DNA of 64,000 nucleotides from Methanotrichaceae archaeon (GTDB taxonomy: Archaea > Halobacteriota > Methanosarcinia > Methanotrichales > Methanotrichaceae). The translations under genes were made by a program, and so were the position numbers. Under the pieces are notes generated by a model. It worked only from the letters and a program-made list of their open reading frames with translations. It did no database searches and was not told the origin of the DNA. This document shows positions 40,910-54,193 of the stretch, in pieces. The DNA lies in contig JABLXE010000004.1 in NCBI GenBank assembly GCA_013178225.1, positions 1 through 64,000 of the forward strand. The letters run 5' to 3'. Numbering within the stretch: the first letter of the stretch is position 1; every line of letters begins with the position of its first letter.

Positions 40910-41809
40910 ATGAAAAGGATTTTTATTTCGATAGTGCTCTTAATGCTCCTCAGTGCAGGTGCATGGGCACAGCCTACACCGTCTACCCCGCCCAGTGCAG
41001 AATCATTGGGACTGCAAACGCCGCAGCCGTCAGAAGGTGCTGGGGCACCGCCGGCCTCAGAGAGTGGACAGGCATTGGTGGCTACCTCAGAAGCTTCGGC
41101 CAAATCGGCCGCACCAATGGCCATGGCTGTCGCACCTGATACCAAGATGGTTGTGCCCCCAGGGGTTTCAACGCCAAACCTGTTTTACATCCCCTATTCT
41201 CCTTCGACCACAGCGGGCTGCAATCTGGGGCAGTGGTTGCCAATGTGGCTGGATGTCAGGGGCTCCGGACCGCTCTATAGCTACGAGTGGTATCCTAATG
41301 GAAGGCTGGTAAGTCAGCAATTGGCCTATGTGTCATATCCCGGCTGGCAGAAGATGTGGTTTTACGGAGATGCACCCGGATGGCATACTTTGCAGTACTA
41401 CTGTAATGGCTGGAGCAATTATGTGTACGCATATGTCTACGGAGGGGGTCCTGGTCCGGTTCCACCAACTCCCAGTTGTCAAGCTAGGATCGTGGTCTCC
41501 TCACCATATATGACCGGTTTCTCTGTCTATGTTGACGGAGCTTACGTTGGAGGAGATGGCCGCGGTGGCGATCCGTTGGATGGCTACTACAGCTTTAATG
41601 TAGCAGGAAACCAGGCTCACACCATAAAGGTAGTTTATAGCGGAGGAACCTACACCCAAACCAAGACCTATTATTGTGGAAATACCTACACTTTGACGAT
41701 TGGATCTCCATCCACTCCTTCTCCCTCACCGCCCATAGCTATACAACCGCTTCCGCCAGTGTCTATACAACCGCTTCCAGGTGATCAGCCTATAGCTACA
41801 CCCTATTGA
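40910..41809 (+). CDS. exported Pro- and aromatic-rich protein
   Basis: This 299-residue protein has a signal peptide ending SAGAWAQ. A Pro/Ala/Ser-rich linker (22-75) leads to a domain dense in Tyr and Trp (YSYEWYPNGRLVSQQLAYVS, WFYGDAPGWHTLQYYCNGWS). A second domain with PEGA-like features (GFSVYVDGAYVGGDGRGGD, QAHTIKVVYSGG) follows, then a Pro-rich tail with the repeat IQPLPPVSIQPLPG. It is probably a cell-surface or sheath-associated protein. The PEGA-like part is a carbohydrate/protein-binding beta fold in other proteins. A hairpin terminator follows the gene. Confidence 0.78.
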   Translation: MKRIFISIVLLMLLSAGAWAQPTPSTPPSAESLGLQTPQPSEGAGAPPASESGQALVATSEASAKSAAPMAMAVAPDTKMVVPPGVSTPNLFYIPYSPSTTAGCNLGQWLPMWLDVRGSGPLYSYEWYPNGRLVSQQLAYVSYPGWQKMWFYGDAPGWHTLQYYCNGWSNYVYAYVYGGGPGPVPPTPSCQARIVVSSPYMTGFSVYVDGAYVGGDGRGGDPLDGYYSFNVAGNQAHTIKVVYSGGTYTQTKTYYCGNTYTLTIGSPSTPSPSPPIAIQPLPPVSIQPLPGDQPIATPY

Positions 41810-45407: not shown

Positions 45408-45857
45408 TTAATCTTTATTTTTTACGAGTTTTAAGATATTCTTTCCATCACGGTGTTGGTAATGTATTTCATCCACGCAATTCTTTATGAGATAGATGCC
45501 CAGGCCGCCAATGGGACGCTCTTCTGCTGGCGATTCGGTCACGGGAGCAATCCGTGATGTGGGATCGAATGGCGTCCCCCAGTCCTCCAAAGTCAGGTGC
45601 AGATCATCTTCTGCTGCGGCGGTGATGTGGATCTGCCCATTCCTTTCTTCATAGGCATAATTCGAGATGTTGGTGCATGCTTCCTCTGCTGCCAGCTGCA
45701 TCTCCATGATCTTCTTCGCGTCGAAACCGCAGGCGCTCATTACCTCGTAAATGAAGTCAGAGATGGCTGGAATCTCCCCCAATCTCGCCGGAACTGTAAT
45801 CTCTCTGTTAATTCCCATCATATCGTTATTCTTTGCTGCCCCTGGTTGCTTTACCAT
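45408..45857 (-). CDS. RsbW/SpoIIAB-type ATP-binding anti-sigma-factor-like kinase
   Basis: This 149-residue protein of the GHKL ATPase fold has N-box AAEEACTNISNYAYEE, G1 box LEDWGTPFDP, and G2 box GGLGIYLIKNCVDEI. In bacteria, RsbW kinases phosphorylate a STAS-domain antagonist and bind sigma factors. Archaea have no sigma factors, so the partner target here must be something else. The gene lies 36 bases downstream of the STAS gene at 45894-46235, clearly its cognate antagonist. The start may be the first ATG or one of two adjacent ATGs 12-13 codons further on; neither has a strong ribosome binding site. Confidence 0.88.
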   Translation of the reverse strand: MVKQPGAAKNNDMMGINREITVPARLGEIPAISDFIYEVMSACGFDAKKIMEMQLAAEEACTNISNYAYEERNGQIHITAAAEDDLHLTLEDWGTPFDPTSRIAPVTESPAEERPIGGLGIYLIKNCVDEIHYQHRDGKNILKLVKNKD

Positions 45858-45893: not shown

Positions 45894-46235
45894 CTATCCG
45901 GTTTTCATTTTACTGATCGCTTCTCGCTGATCGGGACAGATCAGGAATAGCTTTGTAAAGCCGGTGATCTCGAAGACCTCACGCACGAAAGGCTGAAGCG
46001 ATGCCAGCATCAGATCTCCCTGCTTTGGTCGAACTTTCTTCAGGGCGGCGAGCATTACCCTTAGCCCGACGCTGCTGATGTACTCGACTCCAGCTAGATC
46101 CACTATGATTCTGTTATTGTCCTCTTCAATTAGGCCGTTGAGGGCATTTTCCAGATCTCTGGAAGTAGTGGCATCGATCCTGCCGGAGACTGCCAGTATC
46201 GGAACGCTATCGATAACTGTATGATTTATTTCCAT
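45894..46235 (-). CDS. STAS-domain anti-anti-sigma-factor-like protein
   Basis: This 113-residue single STAS domain is of the SpoIIAA/RsbV type. It starts VPILAVSGRIDATTSRDLEN, followed by IIVDLAGVEYISSVGLRVML, where Ser54 or Ser55 aligns with the phosphorylated Ser of RsbV. Helix 4 ends in FEITGFTKLFLICPDQREA. It forms a two-gene operon with the RsbW-like kinase downstream. Phosphorylation by that kinase would control binding. No PP2C phosphatase gene is next to the pair. Confidence 0.9.
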   Translation of the reverse strand: MEINHTVIDSVPILAVSGRIDATTSRDLENALNGLIEEDNNRIIVDLAGVEYISSVGLRVMLAALKKVRPKQGDLMLASLQPFVREVFEITGFTKLFLICPDQREAISKMKTG

Positions 46236-46812
46236 TATATCACATCATAAACTCTATGACTTTGCTCGTACATTACTCTTTTGATCGCAGAATCGATGGC
46301 AGAATAGATGAGAAATGAAATAATACTGCACCAATATTTCGTTTATCGTGATAAATTTAATGGCCGAAGCGGAACAATCTTTTAAAGAGCTGCGCCCGGA
46401 AGCAGGGCCTTCTGAGCTTTTCAATACACCTCATGTAATGCAGTTTGCGCCGTCCTTTTGCATCTACAGACTTCGCAAATCCTTATCCTGCATCTTACTA
46501 TGAATCATCCTTTGTATGGCCTGATCGATCTGGAGTGACACGGCTCCCAGTAACGGAAATGATGACTTATGTCATCGCGAAAATTACGTACGGGATCGTG
46601 GGTCATCAGAGGGCGTCAGAGTCAATTATCCCTCTGTTGATGGAACAGAAATTGGAGCAAATATTAGAGCTATTAGCGCTATATTTCTTTGCCATCTGAA
46701 AGCTATACCTATATCAGGAAGCAATAATATTTATACTTTGAAGTGAAGAAATTTATAAAAGTTAATATGAGGGAGACCGAGTAAACGCCAGGAGTGGATC
46801 GTCATTCAAAAT
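46236..46812. other. intergenic region between the STAS gene and the cupredoxin-like gene
   Basis: About 575 bases. On the right, TTTATAAAA at 46752-46760 is a good TATA box for the 46813 gene. An 84-residue plus-strand open frame at 46445-46699 lacks a ribosome binding site and recognisable features. The rest holds nothing I can name. Confidence 0.4.
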
Positions 46813-48669
46813 ATGAATCTTACAGTGGTGGTGCTGTTTCTTTTAGCATGTCTTGCGTGCGTAAACGCAAGTGCGCAATCGTCCTATGTGATTGAGATCA
46901 GAGCTTCCTCTTTTTCTCCTCAGTCGATTACAGTGCCGGCAGAAGCCACAGTTGCCTGGGTCAACGAAGACTTCAGGGATCACTTTATATCCGGAGATAA
47001 TTGGCCTCTTTATTCCGGAGCTATGCCCTCAGGCCAGAGGATTCAATATCAATTCACCAATCCTGGCACTTATTATTATCGTTGCGACTCCAATCCTTCT
47101 GTTCGTGGCGTAATTGTGGTAACGGGAGGATCAGCAGGAGGATTGAATCAAGAGCGCAATTATGCTCCAAGCACCTATTCAGCTTCCTCAATTCCCTCCA
47201 TGATGGATGGCCGGAAAAGCTCCAAAGGTGGTGAGGCATCCACTCCTTCCGTCTCGGCTAAATCCGTCAGCTCTGAGAAATGCAGCGTGTGCAGCCAGGA
47301 GAGCGGCGCACTGGAGGAACTGTACTATAGCGATCGAGGAAGTAGCTTTCCCTTTTCGCAAGATTCGAAATATTCGAACTATGCCCGGGAGACAAACTCC
47401 TTATGGATAGATGGAGGGTCCGAGAAGATGCAATATGTTGCGGTCCCGAGAGGTGCCCAGCTGATGCTGATCGCCACCACCTCTGAAGAAGGAGACGGAT
47501 ACCTCTATGAGAGCAAACCGGATGGCAGAACGGCCAGAGAAGACTATTATTTCCTGCCCTACAACCAGATTGCATTCCTGGCGGAGGATGCTGGACGGCA
47601 CACGTTAGTATTTTCTGCTAACGGTCAGATGAGCGATTCGGTAACAATTGATGTGCTTGACTCTCAGGAGACTCCTGCTCAGCATGTCCCGGCAGAACCG
47701 CGATACCAGCGGCAAAGCTACCAGCAAGAAGAAATACAGAGCGATTGGCAAGAATACCAGTCGGCTTATCAGCAACAAAGTTATCAGACGAACTTCCAGA
47801 AACAAGACTACGGTCAGCAGAGCGGCTTCCAGCAGGACGATTTTGCTGGCACCGGATACTCCGGTTACCCTCAAGAGGATGCTGAACAATCGGGCTACCA
47901 AGATCAATTTTATTATCAGCAGAGCTATCCACAGCAGAGCTATGAACAGCAGAGCGTAGGGCAAGCGGATTACGGTTACGGGCAGATGGATGCCCGGCAT
48001 TCTGCCTATCAGCAACAAGATAACAGGCAACCATACAACCAGGAGCCGTATTACGGACAAGGAGATTATCAGCAGCAGAAAATCCAGCAAGGATACTCGC
48101 AGAAAAGCTATGCAACATCTCCGCAGGCCGCTGCGGAAAAGGAACTCTTGGCCCTGCAGAGATCCTTCTGGCAGAACTCGGTGGTGAAGCTTGACGAGAG
48201 CGGCCTCTTGACGATGGAAGGAGTTACTGGTACCGAATACTATCTTCAGGCATCGAGCACAGTGGTAATGACTCGGGGCCTGTTCTTCGATGGCGTCCTT
48301 TACATATTGGTGGCTAACCCGAGTACCGTGACCGCTCAGGTGACCGTCGATCCGCAGCTGGGTGACTGGAGCATGCAGGATATCGAAATCCTTTACGGAG
48401 ACCTGGCAGCATCCAAGACCCAAGACCAGGATCTGATGAGGATCGATGTTCCGGCCTTTGGGTCCGGTCTTATAATCGTGCAGCCGCCGAGAAAGAGATA
48501 CTCATTCTCGGTAGGGCCCAGGCCGCAGAGCAGCTTCTCCACCGGAGGACGGGCCGGCTACAGCACCGGGGCGGCACAAAGGCCGAGCTATGGCGTCACA
48601 ACCTGCAGACAAGGCTACAGCTTCAGCGCCGGACCAAAGCCTGCTTACAGCTTCAGGATCGGATATTGA
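46813..48669 (+). CDS. exported cupredoxin-like protein with Q/Y-rich low-complexity domain
   Basis: The 618 residues comprise a signal peptide (1-21, ending VNASAQ), a cupredoxin-like domain (24-104), a linker with CSVC (157-160), a middle domain (170-285), a Gln/Tyr-rich low-complexity region (about 289-435), a folded segment (436-550) and a Tyr/Ser/Gly tail with repeats YSFSVGPRP and YSFSAGPKP. In the cupredoxin part His57 and Cys91 are at copper-ligand positions, but the usual CxxHPxM reads CDSNPSV, so the second His and the Met are lost. Copper binding is therefore doubtful. The Q/Y-rich part resembles prion-like domains. A structural surface or sheath role is possible. Confidence 0.82.
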   Translation: MNLTVVVLFLLACLACVNASAQSSYVIEIRASSFSPQSITVPAEATVAWVNEDFRDHFISGDNWPLYSGAMPSGQRIQYQFTNPGTYYYRCDSNPSVRGVIVVTGGSAGGLNQERNYAPSTYSASSIPSMMDGRKSSKGGEASTPSVSAKSVSSEKCSVCSQESGALEELYYSDRGSSFPFSQDSKYSNYARETNSLWIDGGSEKMQYVAVPRGAQLMLIATTSEEGDGYLYESKPDGRTAREDYYFLPYNQIAFLAEDAGRHTLVFSANGQMSDSVTIDVLDSQETPAQHVPAEPRYQRQSYQQEEIQSDWQEYQSAYQQQSYQTNFQKQDYGQQSGFQQDDFAGTGYSGYPQEDAEQSGYQDQFYYQQSYPQQSYEQQSVGQADYGYGQMDARHSAYQQQDNRQPYNQEPYYGQGDYQQQKIQQGYSQKSYATSPQAAAEKELLALQRSFWQNSVVKLDESGLLTMEGVTGTEYYLQASSTVVMTRGLFFDGVLYILVANPSTVTAQVTVDPQLGDWSMQDIEILYGDLAASKTQDQDLMRIDVPAFGSGLIIVQPPRKRYSFSVGPRPQSSFSTGGRAGYSTGAAQRPSYGVTTCRQGYSFSAGPKPAYSFRIGY

Positions 48670-48779: not shown

Positions 48780-49703
48780 ATGACGATTCGGATCAGAGGA
48801 GTTGTCCTTTGGACTGGAGCTTTGTTAATCATCTGCCTAATCTGCTGCCAGCCGGGCCTGGGACAGAAGGATACAGCGTCGTACTGGTTCGAAAAGGGAA
48901 ATTCGCTCTTGGAAAGCGGGTCCTATGAGCAGGCGGCAGATGCATACGAAGAAGCCCTGAAAATCGATGAAAGCTTTCCCGAAGCTTGGGCCGCCAGAGG
49001 AATCGCTCTGGTGGGAATGGATGAATATGAAGATGCCATTGGCTGTTTTGATCAGGCCCTCGATCTGAATCCCAGTTATGCCGAGGCCTGGAACAACAAG
49101 GGACTGGCCCTGGCCAGGGGCTTTGGCAGATATGATGAGGCACTGCAGGCCTGCGAGGAAGCAATCAAGATCCGCCCCAACGAGTCGGACTTCTGGAACG
49201 GAAAAGGCGTGGCTTCAATAGGTCTGGAGAGGTACGAAGAGGCGATCGAGGCTTTTGATCAGTCAATTCTGCTTAAATCCACCGACGCGCTTCCCTGGAA
49301 GAACAAGGGCAACGCTCTGGACGCTCTGCAAAGATACGATGAGGCCGTCCTGGCCTATGATGCAGCTTTAGGCATCGACCCTGAGGACGCTGAGTCCTGG
49401 TGTAATAAGGGCATCGACCTTCTGTACGGAGGAAAATGCGAGGAGGCCATTGAATGCTTTAATCGAGCGCTGGACCTAAATCCCAACTACATCGAGGCCA
49501 CTTTCAATAAAGGAAATGCTCTCGGGCTGCAGGGCAAGTACGGTCCGGCCCTGGAGGAGTTCGAAAAGGCAATTAAGCTCGATCCGGATTTTTCCGAGGC
49601 CTGGAACAACAAGGGTCTGGCGCTGAGAGAGCTTGGCCGGGAATCCGAGGCTGTTGACGCCCTCTCCAAAGCCCGTGAGCTGGGGAACAGGGAGGGCAAC
49701 TAG
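48780..49703 (+). CDS. exported TPR-repeat protein
   Basis: This 307-residue protein has a signal sequence ending in a Cys-containing segment (CLICCQPGLGQ), suggesting export or lipid anchoring. About eight tetratricopeptide repeats follow (ASYWFEKGNSLLESGSYEQA, EAWNNKGLALARGFGRYDEA, DALPWKNKGNALDALQRYDEA and similar, each about 34 residues). TPRs scaffold protein complexes. Many methanogens of this group encode similar secreted TPR proteins. It follows the cupredoxin-like gene by 110 bases and may be co-transcribed with it. Confidence 0.88.
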   Translation: MTIRIRGVVLWTGALLIICLICCQPGLGQKDTASYWFEKGNSLLESGSYEQAADAYEEALKIDESFPEAWAARGIALVGMDEYEDAIGCFDQALDLNPSYAEAWNNKGLALARGFGRYDEALQACEEAIKIRPNESDFWNGKGVASIGLERYEEAIEAFDQSILLKSTDALPWKNKGNALDALQRYDEAVLAYDAALGIDPEDAESWCNKGIDLLYGGKCEEAIECFNRALDLNPNYIEATFNKGNALGLQGKYGPALEEFEKAIKLDPDFSEAWNNKGLALRELGRESEAVDALSKARELGNREGN

Positions 49704-50807: not shown

Positions 50808-51647
50808 TTAGGGTACCATGCATCCGGCCGGCCCGTTGAAGACGATTCCTAGAAGGTTGTAGCTGCCGGCCAGTTCTGAGGAATCGCTCCTGAGGGGAAA
50901 GAATCGACCGACATTCACCGCAAAGCCTCCTATGTTTCGGTTCGAGTTCTCCTTTCCGGCATTTTGTGCCGCCTCGATGGATTTATTGGCATCGGAAAGC
51001 TTAGCGCTGAGATATTCCGGGCTTGAATAATCGATATCTGAAAGCGTTTTCTGGATCTCGTCCTCCATATTCGAGGAGAGGCTGAAGTTCCCGTTGACTC
51101 GAGCTTCTGAGAGGACGGTTGGGTGCATATTTGTATCCCTTTCAGTGATCTTTTGTTTGAGCGCTCCCTGTCCGCCTATATCGTAATTCGTGATTACCTG
51201 GTAGGACCCATAATCGTTTCTCATTAATTCAATGGAGCTATCTGTATATATCTCCTCTATTCTATTGATCGATGCTACATATTGCAGTGAATTATCAGTA
51301 AGCCCCACTTGATAGCGATTATTCATTGTTACCGGCAGAGCATCCAGCTTTTTTTCCGAATCGCCCCCAGGTATGCTCGCCGGGCCCTGGTCTGATTTAT
51401 TGTTGCTGGCGCTTCTCAGTGCGTACTTTGACCGGAACGACCCGGAAAGGGCATTCTGAAAATCGAAAGCCAGCGAATAATTTTGGGCTCCAAGGCCTTG
51501 CGCCAGATCTTTGGCATATGGTATATCGGTTCGAGTGTACAGGTCTCCACTGCCGTCAACGGCAATGGTCTGGTCGAACTTCAGCGCCTCGGCTCCGGAT
51601 AGTGAAAATATTATACATGATATCATAATAATATATTTCGGCTCCAT
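50808..51647 (-). CDS. exported protein of unknown function
   Basis: This 279-residue protein has a signal peptide (YIIMISCIIFSLSGAEA). The mature protein is largely polar, rich in Ser, Asn and Asp, and predicted to be beta-rich (DQTIAVDGSGDLYTRTDIPY, NRYQVGLTDNSLQYVASINR, GSYQVITNYDIGGQGALKQK). Several NXS/T sequons occur (NYS, NKS, NFS). Repeating short strands suggest a surface protein. I recognise no family. It is monocistronic, followed by the convergent end of the Cache gene. Confidence 0.65.
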   Translation of the reverse strand: MEPKYIIMISCIIFSLSGAEALKFDQTIAVDGSGDLYTRTDIPYAKDLAQGLGAQNYSLAFDFQNALSGSFRSKYALRSASNNKSDQGPASIPGGDSEKKLDALPVTMNNRYQVGLTDNSLQYVASINRIEEIYTDSSIELMRNDYGSYQVITNYDIGGQGALKQKITERDTNMHPTVLSEARVNGNFSLSSNMEDEIQKTLSDIDYSSPEYLSAKLSDANKSIEAAQNAGKENSNRNIGGFAVNVGRFFPLRSDSSELAGSYNLLGIVFNGPAGCMVP

Positions 51648-53476: not shown

Positions 53477-54088
53477 TCACGGGCAGGGCAGGTAGAGGAT
53501 CGATTGATCTCCAGCCTGAATCTCAAAGCGCAGGTCTGAGTAGCCGACATAGGTCCCGGTCATCAGATAGGATGCCTGGGTCTTGGCGCTCTTCCTGGCC
53601 ATGCTGCCGATAGTGGCCATTCCGCGCACCTCTGAGTCGATGTCGTAGATGGAGACGTTGTCGTCCTGATAGACGTAAGTGTCCTTGATCAGGTCGGTCA
53701 GGTTGGTGTACCGCTCGGAGTAAACCGAGCCTACCTCGTAGTTCTTAGCGCACAGCACGTTTCGCAGATCGCTCTGGGTGAAGGTCAGAGGCGGAGTGTA
53801 GGGCTGGTAATCGAATTCAGTAGATGTCTTGTAGTAGAGTTCGTCCATGCTTGAGTCGCTGTAAACGTAAGTATCGACGGTCTTGGTGGCAATGCCGCTA
53901 CCGCTGCTGCCGGCTACCAGCTTGGCCCCCTTGTAGCCCATCTGGGTCTGAAGAACTCTCGAGTCCTGCATGTATCCCACTACGAAGACCCTGGACTTCT
54001 CACTGACGTTCTGGGCAGTCACTTCTTTTCCGCAGCAATTAAGCGTGAGGCAGGCAGCACAGAACCCAATAAGCAGGAGCAGCAGCAT
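53477..54088 (-). CDS. exported protein of unknown function
   Basis: I place the start at the ATG at 54088, which opens directly into a signal peptide (LLLLLIGFCAACLTLNC, with a lipobox-like LNCC); the frame is open 34 codons further up without signal-like sequence. The mature part of about 180 residues is Tyr- and Ser-rich and beta-like (TVDTYVYSDSSMDELYYKTS, DTYVYQDDNVSIYDIDSEV, GTYVGYSDLRFEIQAGDQ). It resembles the 50808-51647 protein in composition but not clearly in sequence. It is probably surface-bound, with unknown function. Confidence 0.65.
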   Translation of the reverse strand: MLLLLLIGFCAACLTLNCCGKEVTAQNVSEKSRVFVVGYMQDSRVLQTQMGYKGAKLVAGSSGSGIATKTVDTYVYSDSSMDELYYKTSTEFDYQPYTPPLTFTQSDLRNVLCAKNYEVGSVYSERYTNLTDLIKDTYVYQDDNVSIYDIDSEVRGMATIGSMARKSAKTQASYLMTGTYVGYSDLRFEIQAGDQSILYLPCP

Positions 54089-54193
54089 TTTTCTCGTCAG
54101 GATGCCTCTTTCCCCCAATGCAACCAAAGTGAGGGTCCTACAGATATAAATCTGATCCTCCAGGCTTGCGGACCCCCAGGGTATTTCCATGAT

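Follow-up and report, generated by a model that had tools for sequence, protein, structure and literature searches.

A Predicted Multidomain Surface Protein From a Methanotrichaceae Archaeon With an Eroded Cupredoxin Copper Site, a Gln/Tyr-Rich Tether and a Conserved YSF Tail

Gene Organization and Domain Layout

The gene described here occupies positions 46813-48669 (+) of the window, i.e., the whole 64,000-nucleotide stretch of a Methanotrichaceae contig that was analyzed, and encodes a protein of 618 aa in a reading frame that starts with ATG and contains no internal stops. A possible archaeal TATA box (TTTATAAA; 46752-46759, +), read from the sequence, lies 5' of the gene. Directly upstream and in divergent orientation are two genes (45408-45857 and 45894-46235, -) that, judged by sequence only, form a pair of an anti-sigma-type kinase and a STAS antagonist, and downstream lies the gene of a secreted TPR protein (48780-49703, +).

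All parts of the protein are encoded on the plus strand. The N-terminus is a putative signal peptide (residues 1-21; 46813-46875), recognized from the sequence and modeled as a helix by AlphaFold2, with predicted cleavage at NASA/Q. It is followed by a cupredoxin domain (residues 25-104; 46885-47124), a low-complexity linker that contains a CxxC motif formed by C157 and C160 (residues 105-165; 47125-47307), and an Ig-like domain, here called mid (residues 166-289; 47308-47679), which belongs to no Pfam family and is supported by its relatives, AlphaFold2 and Foldseek. A disordered acidic Q/Y-rich tether (residues 290-435; 47680-48117), C-terminal to mid, precedes a C-terminal beta domain (CT; residues 443-560; 48139-48492) and a basic aromatic tail of YSFxxGPxP units (residues 561-618; 48493-48666) that includes C598 and ends in YSFRIGY. 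AlphaFold2, run with an input of 20 sequences, gives a folded/disordered/folded/disordered layout, in which a beta domain at about residues 458-556 has low confidence (pLDDT about 50-55) and the C-terminal tail is disordered apart from a last strand at residues 612-617. The sole domain that Pfam recognizes in the 618-aa protein is the N-terminal Cupredoxin_1 (E 4.6e-8, above cut-off); neither Pfam nor NCBIfam gives a name above cut-off for mid or CT, and a PDB sequence search with these two domains produced no credible match. The aromatic content of the whole protein is 12.9%, and the mature form has three extra cysteines (C157, C160 and C598) that its relatives do not have. A search for viral relatives found none.

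The hydrophobic N-terminal signal peptide suggests that the protein is secreted. The first-pass annotation had read it as a surface protein and linked it to Methanothrix; secretion to the cell surface in a relative of Methanothrix is supported by the AxA-type cleavage site, together with the predicted secretion of all close relatives.

A Cupredoxin Domain With an Eroded Copper Site

The first domain has the beta-sandwich fold of type-1 copper cupredoxins according to Pfam, AlphaFold2 (a confident fold, with pLDDT about 90) and Foldseek, which ranks amicyanin and plastocyanin as the top PDB matches, and it does not have the complete His, Cys, His, Met ligand set of these proteins. DNA and alignment agree that H57 (CAC, 46981-46983) and C91 (TGC, 47083-47085) are retained, while the second His is replaced by N94 (AAT, 47092-47094) and the Met by V97 (GTT, 47101-47103). 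The CDSNPSV loop with H94N and M97V thus removes two of the four type-1 copper ligands, just as had been noticed at first reading.

The order of a cupredoxin followed by mid is common to this protein and about 18 relatives that carry a PEGA-like C-terminal domain, whose place is taken here by the Q/Y segment, CT and the YSF tail. Most members of this cupredoxin-Ig-PEGA family retain the C-x-x-H-x-x-M ligands. Nevertheless, several relatives have also eroded them: the His ligand is changed to N in L081 and to Q in L085, L086, L087 and L100, and L099, the sole relative that has lost the Cys ligand, combines C to S with H to Q. Because of these cases, the loss of the copper site is a recurring trend of the family and not a single oddity; loss of the Met ligand is seen, among the family members compared, in the window protein only. 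Elsewhere in the same genome (C25, L037:782-2368), a cupredoxin with an intact CxxHPxM is fused to a sorbosone-dehydrogenase-like propeller, an arrangement common in Methanotrichaceae.

The mid domain is 36-48% identical to that of 17 relatives and is modeled by AlphaFold2 as a confident beta-sandwich at residues 196-282, for which Foldseek returns generic Ig-like matches. Secreted copies of it are numerous across Methanotrichaceae. In the window protein the conserved core is altered from SSWTQYA to SEKMQYV. A second secreted mid/PEGA-like member of the family (40910-41809, +; E 3e-19 to the family profile) is encoded about 5 kb upstream.

The Gln/Tyr-Rich Segment

Residues 289-435 (147 residues) contain 42 Gln (28.6%) and 22 Tyr (15.0%), so that Q and Y together make up 44% of the segment, and the aromatic content is 18.4%. 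There is no Leu and there are only 3 Asn (2%), and 18 acidic (12%) and 7 basic residues leave 17% of the segment charged, with a net charge of -11. The description of some 145 residues dominated by Gln and Tyr is borne out by the top 100-residue window, which holds 45 Q/Y where any other ORF reaches at most 26 among 1,788 ORFs, a set drawn from the window and the fetched loci only. Of the repeated YQQQSY-like units described earlier, the exact word YQQQSY is present once, YQQ five times and QQSY three times. The QQSY count is matched in 0.01% of composition-preserving shuffles (p about 0.0001), and tyrosines five residues apart are overrepresented (p about 0.003).

At the DNA level the segment contains a single 15-bp repeat of 2.6 copies, and with so little repetition the Q/Y stretch is no fresh microsatellite. 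It is taken to be coding because it lies in frame between two domains that each have independent homologues. AlphaFold2 finds no structure in residues 290-435 (pLDDT mostly <40), and the stretch has no match in its own genome or in 60 relatives among the matches listed. Prion-like domains are Q/N-rich, disordered and low in charge; the segment is Q-rich and disordered but acidic and Asn-poor, so the label "prion-like" appears to fit only in part.

The CT Domain and the Origin of the Two Halves

The C-terminal half, CT plus tail, is homologous to a separate secreted protein of 316-321 aa in the Methanothrix genomes G033 and G064. This protein, which carries two CT domains, is the sole source of CT homologues; among 393 genomes sampled from the phylum, G033 and G064 not included, CT was found in the window's own genome only. 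In the window as in G033 and G064, a CT domain with a terminal YSF tail is followed directly by an orthologous secreted TPR gene, and the TPR protein of G033, at 51% identity, ranks with the closest matches that the window TPR protein has in the family. TPR genes are plentiful in the genomes of the family (about 10-100 candidates each), and therefore the adjacency of a TPR gene to the tail gene in G007 may be due to chance. The simplest reading of these homologies would be that a fusion or domain swap, at a locus that is itself conserved, joined two secreted proteins, and that the Q/Y stretch lies where they meet.

The YSF Tail and a Candidate Partner

The last 58 residues run from YSFSVGPRP through degenerate copies and YSFSAGPKP to the terminal YSFRIGY. 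The YSFS(V/A)GP(R/K)P repeats reported at first reading are thus present, in exact form twice, with the degenerate copies between them. As a DNA pattern the YSF motif is no commoner than its reversed control, and for this reason profiles were used to trace the tail. Of 50 family genomes, 12, spanning six genera, have it at the end of exactly one protein each: the window's genome, G033, G064, G007, all six g6 species (G016 included), G010 and G008. Tails consist of 2-5 units that end in [P/A/G]YSF[R/K/H]xG (YSFHIW in G008), and every tail is basic and aromatic and has no more than one acidic residue, whereas the Q/Y tether is acidic. Ahead of the tail stands CT or, in other genera, an Ig domain, and homology between the two was rejected (hhalign 0.4%); the tail protein of G007 has Ig-type domains and that of G008 a beta-helix-like part plus Ig. 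A scan of 238 genomes of the class gave no convincing case outside the family, a match in G216 being a GYTFNNGSNP repeat protein that was judged unrelated. A general sorting signal with many substrates was rejected because no genome showed more than a single tail protein. From its conservation, this short tail probably fastens the protein to the cell envelope. Just upstream of the tail gene of G007 lies a gene (L222:4113-4550) for a small secreted protein that consists almost entirely of KPTYDVxSYVRT repeats.

A possible partner of the tail is a secreted protein whose N-terminus carries Y[ST][FILV]xxG repeats, here called the YS-repeat protein, found mostly once per genome in 33 of 50 Methanotrichaceae genomes. 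The tail profile matches these repeats with an hhalign probability of 90.9%, whereas 40 column shuffles reached at most 6.1% and reversal gave 0.5%. The link is partly circular, because it was with the tail profile that the YS-repeat family had been discovered. YS-repeat and YSF-tail genes are neighbors in G008 and close in G010; the YS-repeat gene, which in the window's own genome is L230:3476-4351 (C1:193475-194350), adjoins a radical-SAM-like gene.

Relation to the Methanothrix Sheath

The first-pass annotation had also suggested that the protein may belong to the sheath. MspA, the reported sheath protein of M. thermophila, was later seen as probably misidentified or secondary, and SH proteins, which are present in all Methanotrichales, have an amyloid-like beta-sheet core and in some cases bear Ig-like extensions, are now the proposed main sheath components (PMC11576556; PMC6242892). 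Sheath hoops are joined by disulfides, and no further proteins were found to associate with the sheath or plug (PMC11576556).

For the comparison, candidates in G016 were picked by position, signal peptides and tandem arrangement: L070 for the MspA pair and L066 for an SH-type cluster. The former, a 575-aa and a 506-aa protein at the expected position, we take to be Mthe_1069/1070, with Mthe_1069 corresponding to ABK14853.1. The window protein gave no phmmer match at E<=10 to either MspA candidate or to the candidate SH cluster of M. thermoacetophila, and its hhalign probability with the latter was below 1%. Sheath membership is thus not supported and, as far as sequence comparison goes, the protein is no recognizable sheath-building protein; attachment to the sheath is possible. 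The window does encode a candidate SH-type sheath protein (53477-54190, -; E 9e-14 to the SH-type ORF L066_703903), and its neighbor (50808-51647, -) is a secreted ORF of no known family.

Interpretation and Alternatives

We favor, with a probability of about one half, a modular surface protein without redox function that arose by fusion or domain swap. The cupredoxin would have kept its fold and lost its copper function, forming together with the Ig-like domain a structural or binding head; the acidic disordered Q/Y-rich tether would act as a long, possibly sticky spacer that displays this head; and CT with the basic aromatic YSF tail would be the attachment end, docking non-covalently on the cell envelope. 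The docking target might be the S-layer, the sheath or a conserved secreted partner (such as the YS-repeat protein or the adjacent TPR protein), and the role of the whole protein would be display or adhesion. We infer these roles of head and spacer, and docking by the tail is suggested by its conservation.

Self-assembly of the Q/Y domain into an amyloid-like or condensate state, with the protein as an integral or accessory, cysteine-crosslinked component of the sheath, would explain the extreme Q/Y content and the Tyr-Tyr spacing of 5, and could draw on the three extra cysteines, given that disulfides join sheath hoops (PMC11576556), and on the SH-like gene at 5 kb distance (53477-54190). We nevertheless consider it unlikely, since the protein shows no sequence relation to MspA or the candidate SH proteins, and the amyloid idea in particular appears weakened by a segment that is 17% charged, has 2% Asn and did not turn up in the other family genomes searched, although SH proteins occur in all Methanotrichales (PMC11576556). 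More elaborately, the acidic tether, rich in Gln and Tyr, and the basic tail with its Tyr, Phe and Arg could be complementary stickers, a situation comparable with that of FUS, which has Tyr-rich and Arg-rich parts. They would form an extracellular condensate or an amyloid-like layer on or in the sheath, and the YSF motif would be a module for homotypic assembly that the YS-repeat partner also has; this version strikes us as distinctly improbable. Similarly improbable is a residual metal site in which His57, Cys91 and Asn94 bind copper or another metal in a different manner for sensing or trafficking: His57 and Cys91 have been kept despite the other ligand changes, and the Cys is lost in one relative only (L099), but Met has become Val, and the relatives point to stepwise erosion and share no new conserved ligand set.

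Lineage-specific drift, by which a fused and fast-diverging surface protein would have acquired the Q/Y stretch as a neutral low-complexity spacer, fits the restriction of this stretch to one genome and the altered Ig-like core; 618 open codons, intact flanking domains and the conservation of tail and CT across genera make it a poor candidate. Least probable of all is a role as electron contact in interspecies electron transfer, in which electrons would hop from tyrosine to tyrosine. In its favor are aromatic contents of 12.9% for the whole protein and 18.4% for the Q/Y segment, next to the 10.7% and 11.3% cited for MspA and SqpA (PMC10470525), and the listing of copper-domain surface proteins among DIET candidates (PMC10470525); against it are a dead copper site with two of four ligands gone, no other cofactor motif, and a source that terms its analysis speculative and saw no clear induction specific to DIET (PMC10470525). 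The listing of such proteins for electron transfer invites a misreading that this case corrects, since in the family the copper site decays repeatedly.

The Methanothrix group dominates acetate-derived methane production, and it is poorly understood how non-SH proteins attach to the Methanothrix sheath and what builds the plugs (PMC11576556). The YSF tail, which sits on exactly one surface protein per genome behind outer domains that have been swapped, is a candidate attachment module that can be tested.

Comparison With Known Systems

The window protein shares with the SH proteins and MspA predicted secretion and an origin in sheathed Methanotrichales, but no detectable sequence or profile similarity. 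It resembles amicyanin and plastocyanin (PDB 1sfd, 1bxu) in how its first domain folds and in having His57 and Cys91, whereas at positions 94 and 97 the His and Met ligands of those proteins are Asn and Val. The cupredoxin-Ig-PEGA proteins (e.g., L083, JANYKI010000024.1, and L089, CAIQHB010000080.1), at about 30-35% overall identity, show the same succession of signal peptide, cupredoxin, linker rich in Ser/Thr/Gly and mid domain; unlike the window protein they have a PEGA-like end and mostly CxxHPxM, and they contain no Q/Y stretch, CT or YSF tail. Conversely, the CT-CT-YSF protein (L049 in G033, L080 in G064) resembles the window protein in CT (42-48% identity), in the basic YSFxAGPKP tail ending in YSFRIGY and in the secreted TPR gene next to it, and differs in having two CT domains and no cupredoxin, Ig-like or Q/Y parts. 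What is new here is accordingly not a kind of system, but the combination of these domains and a conserved tail that had no prior description.
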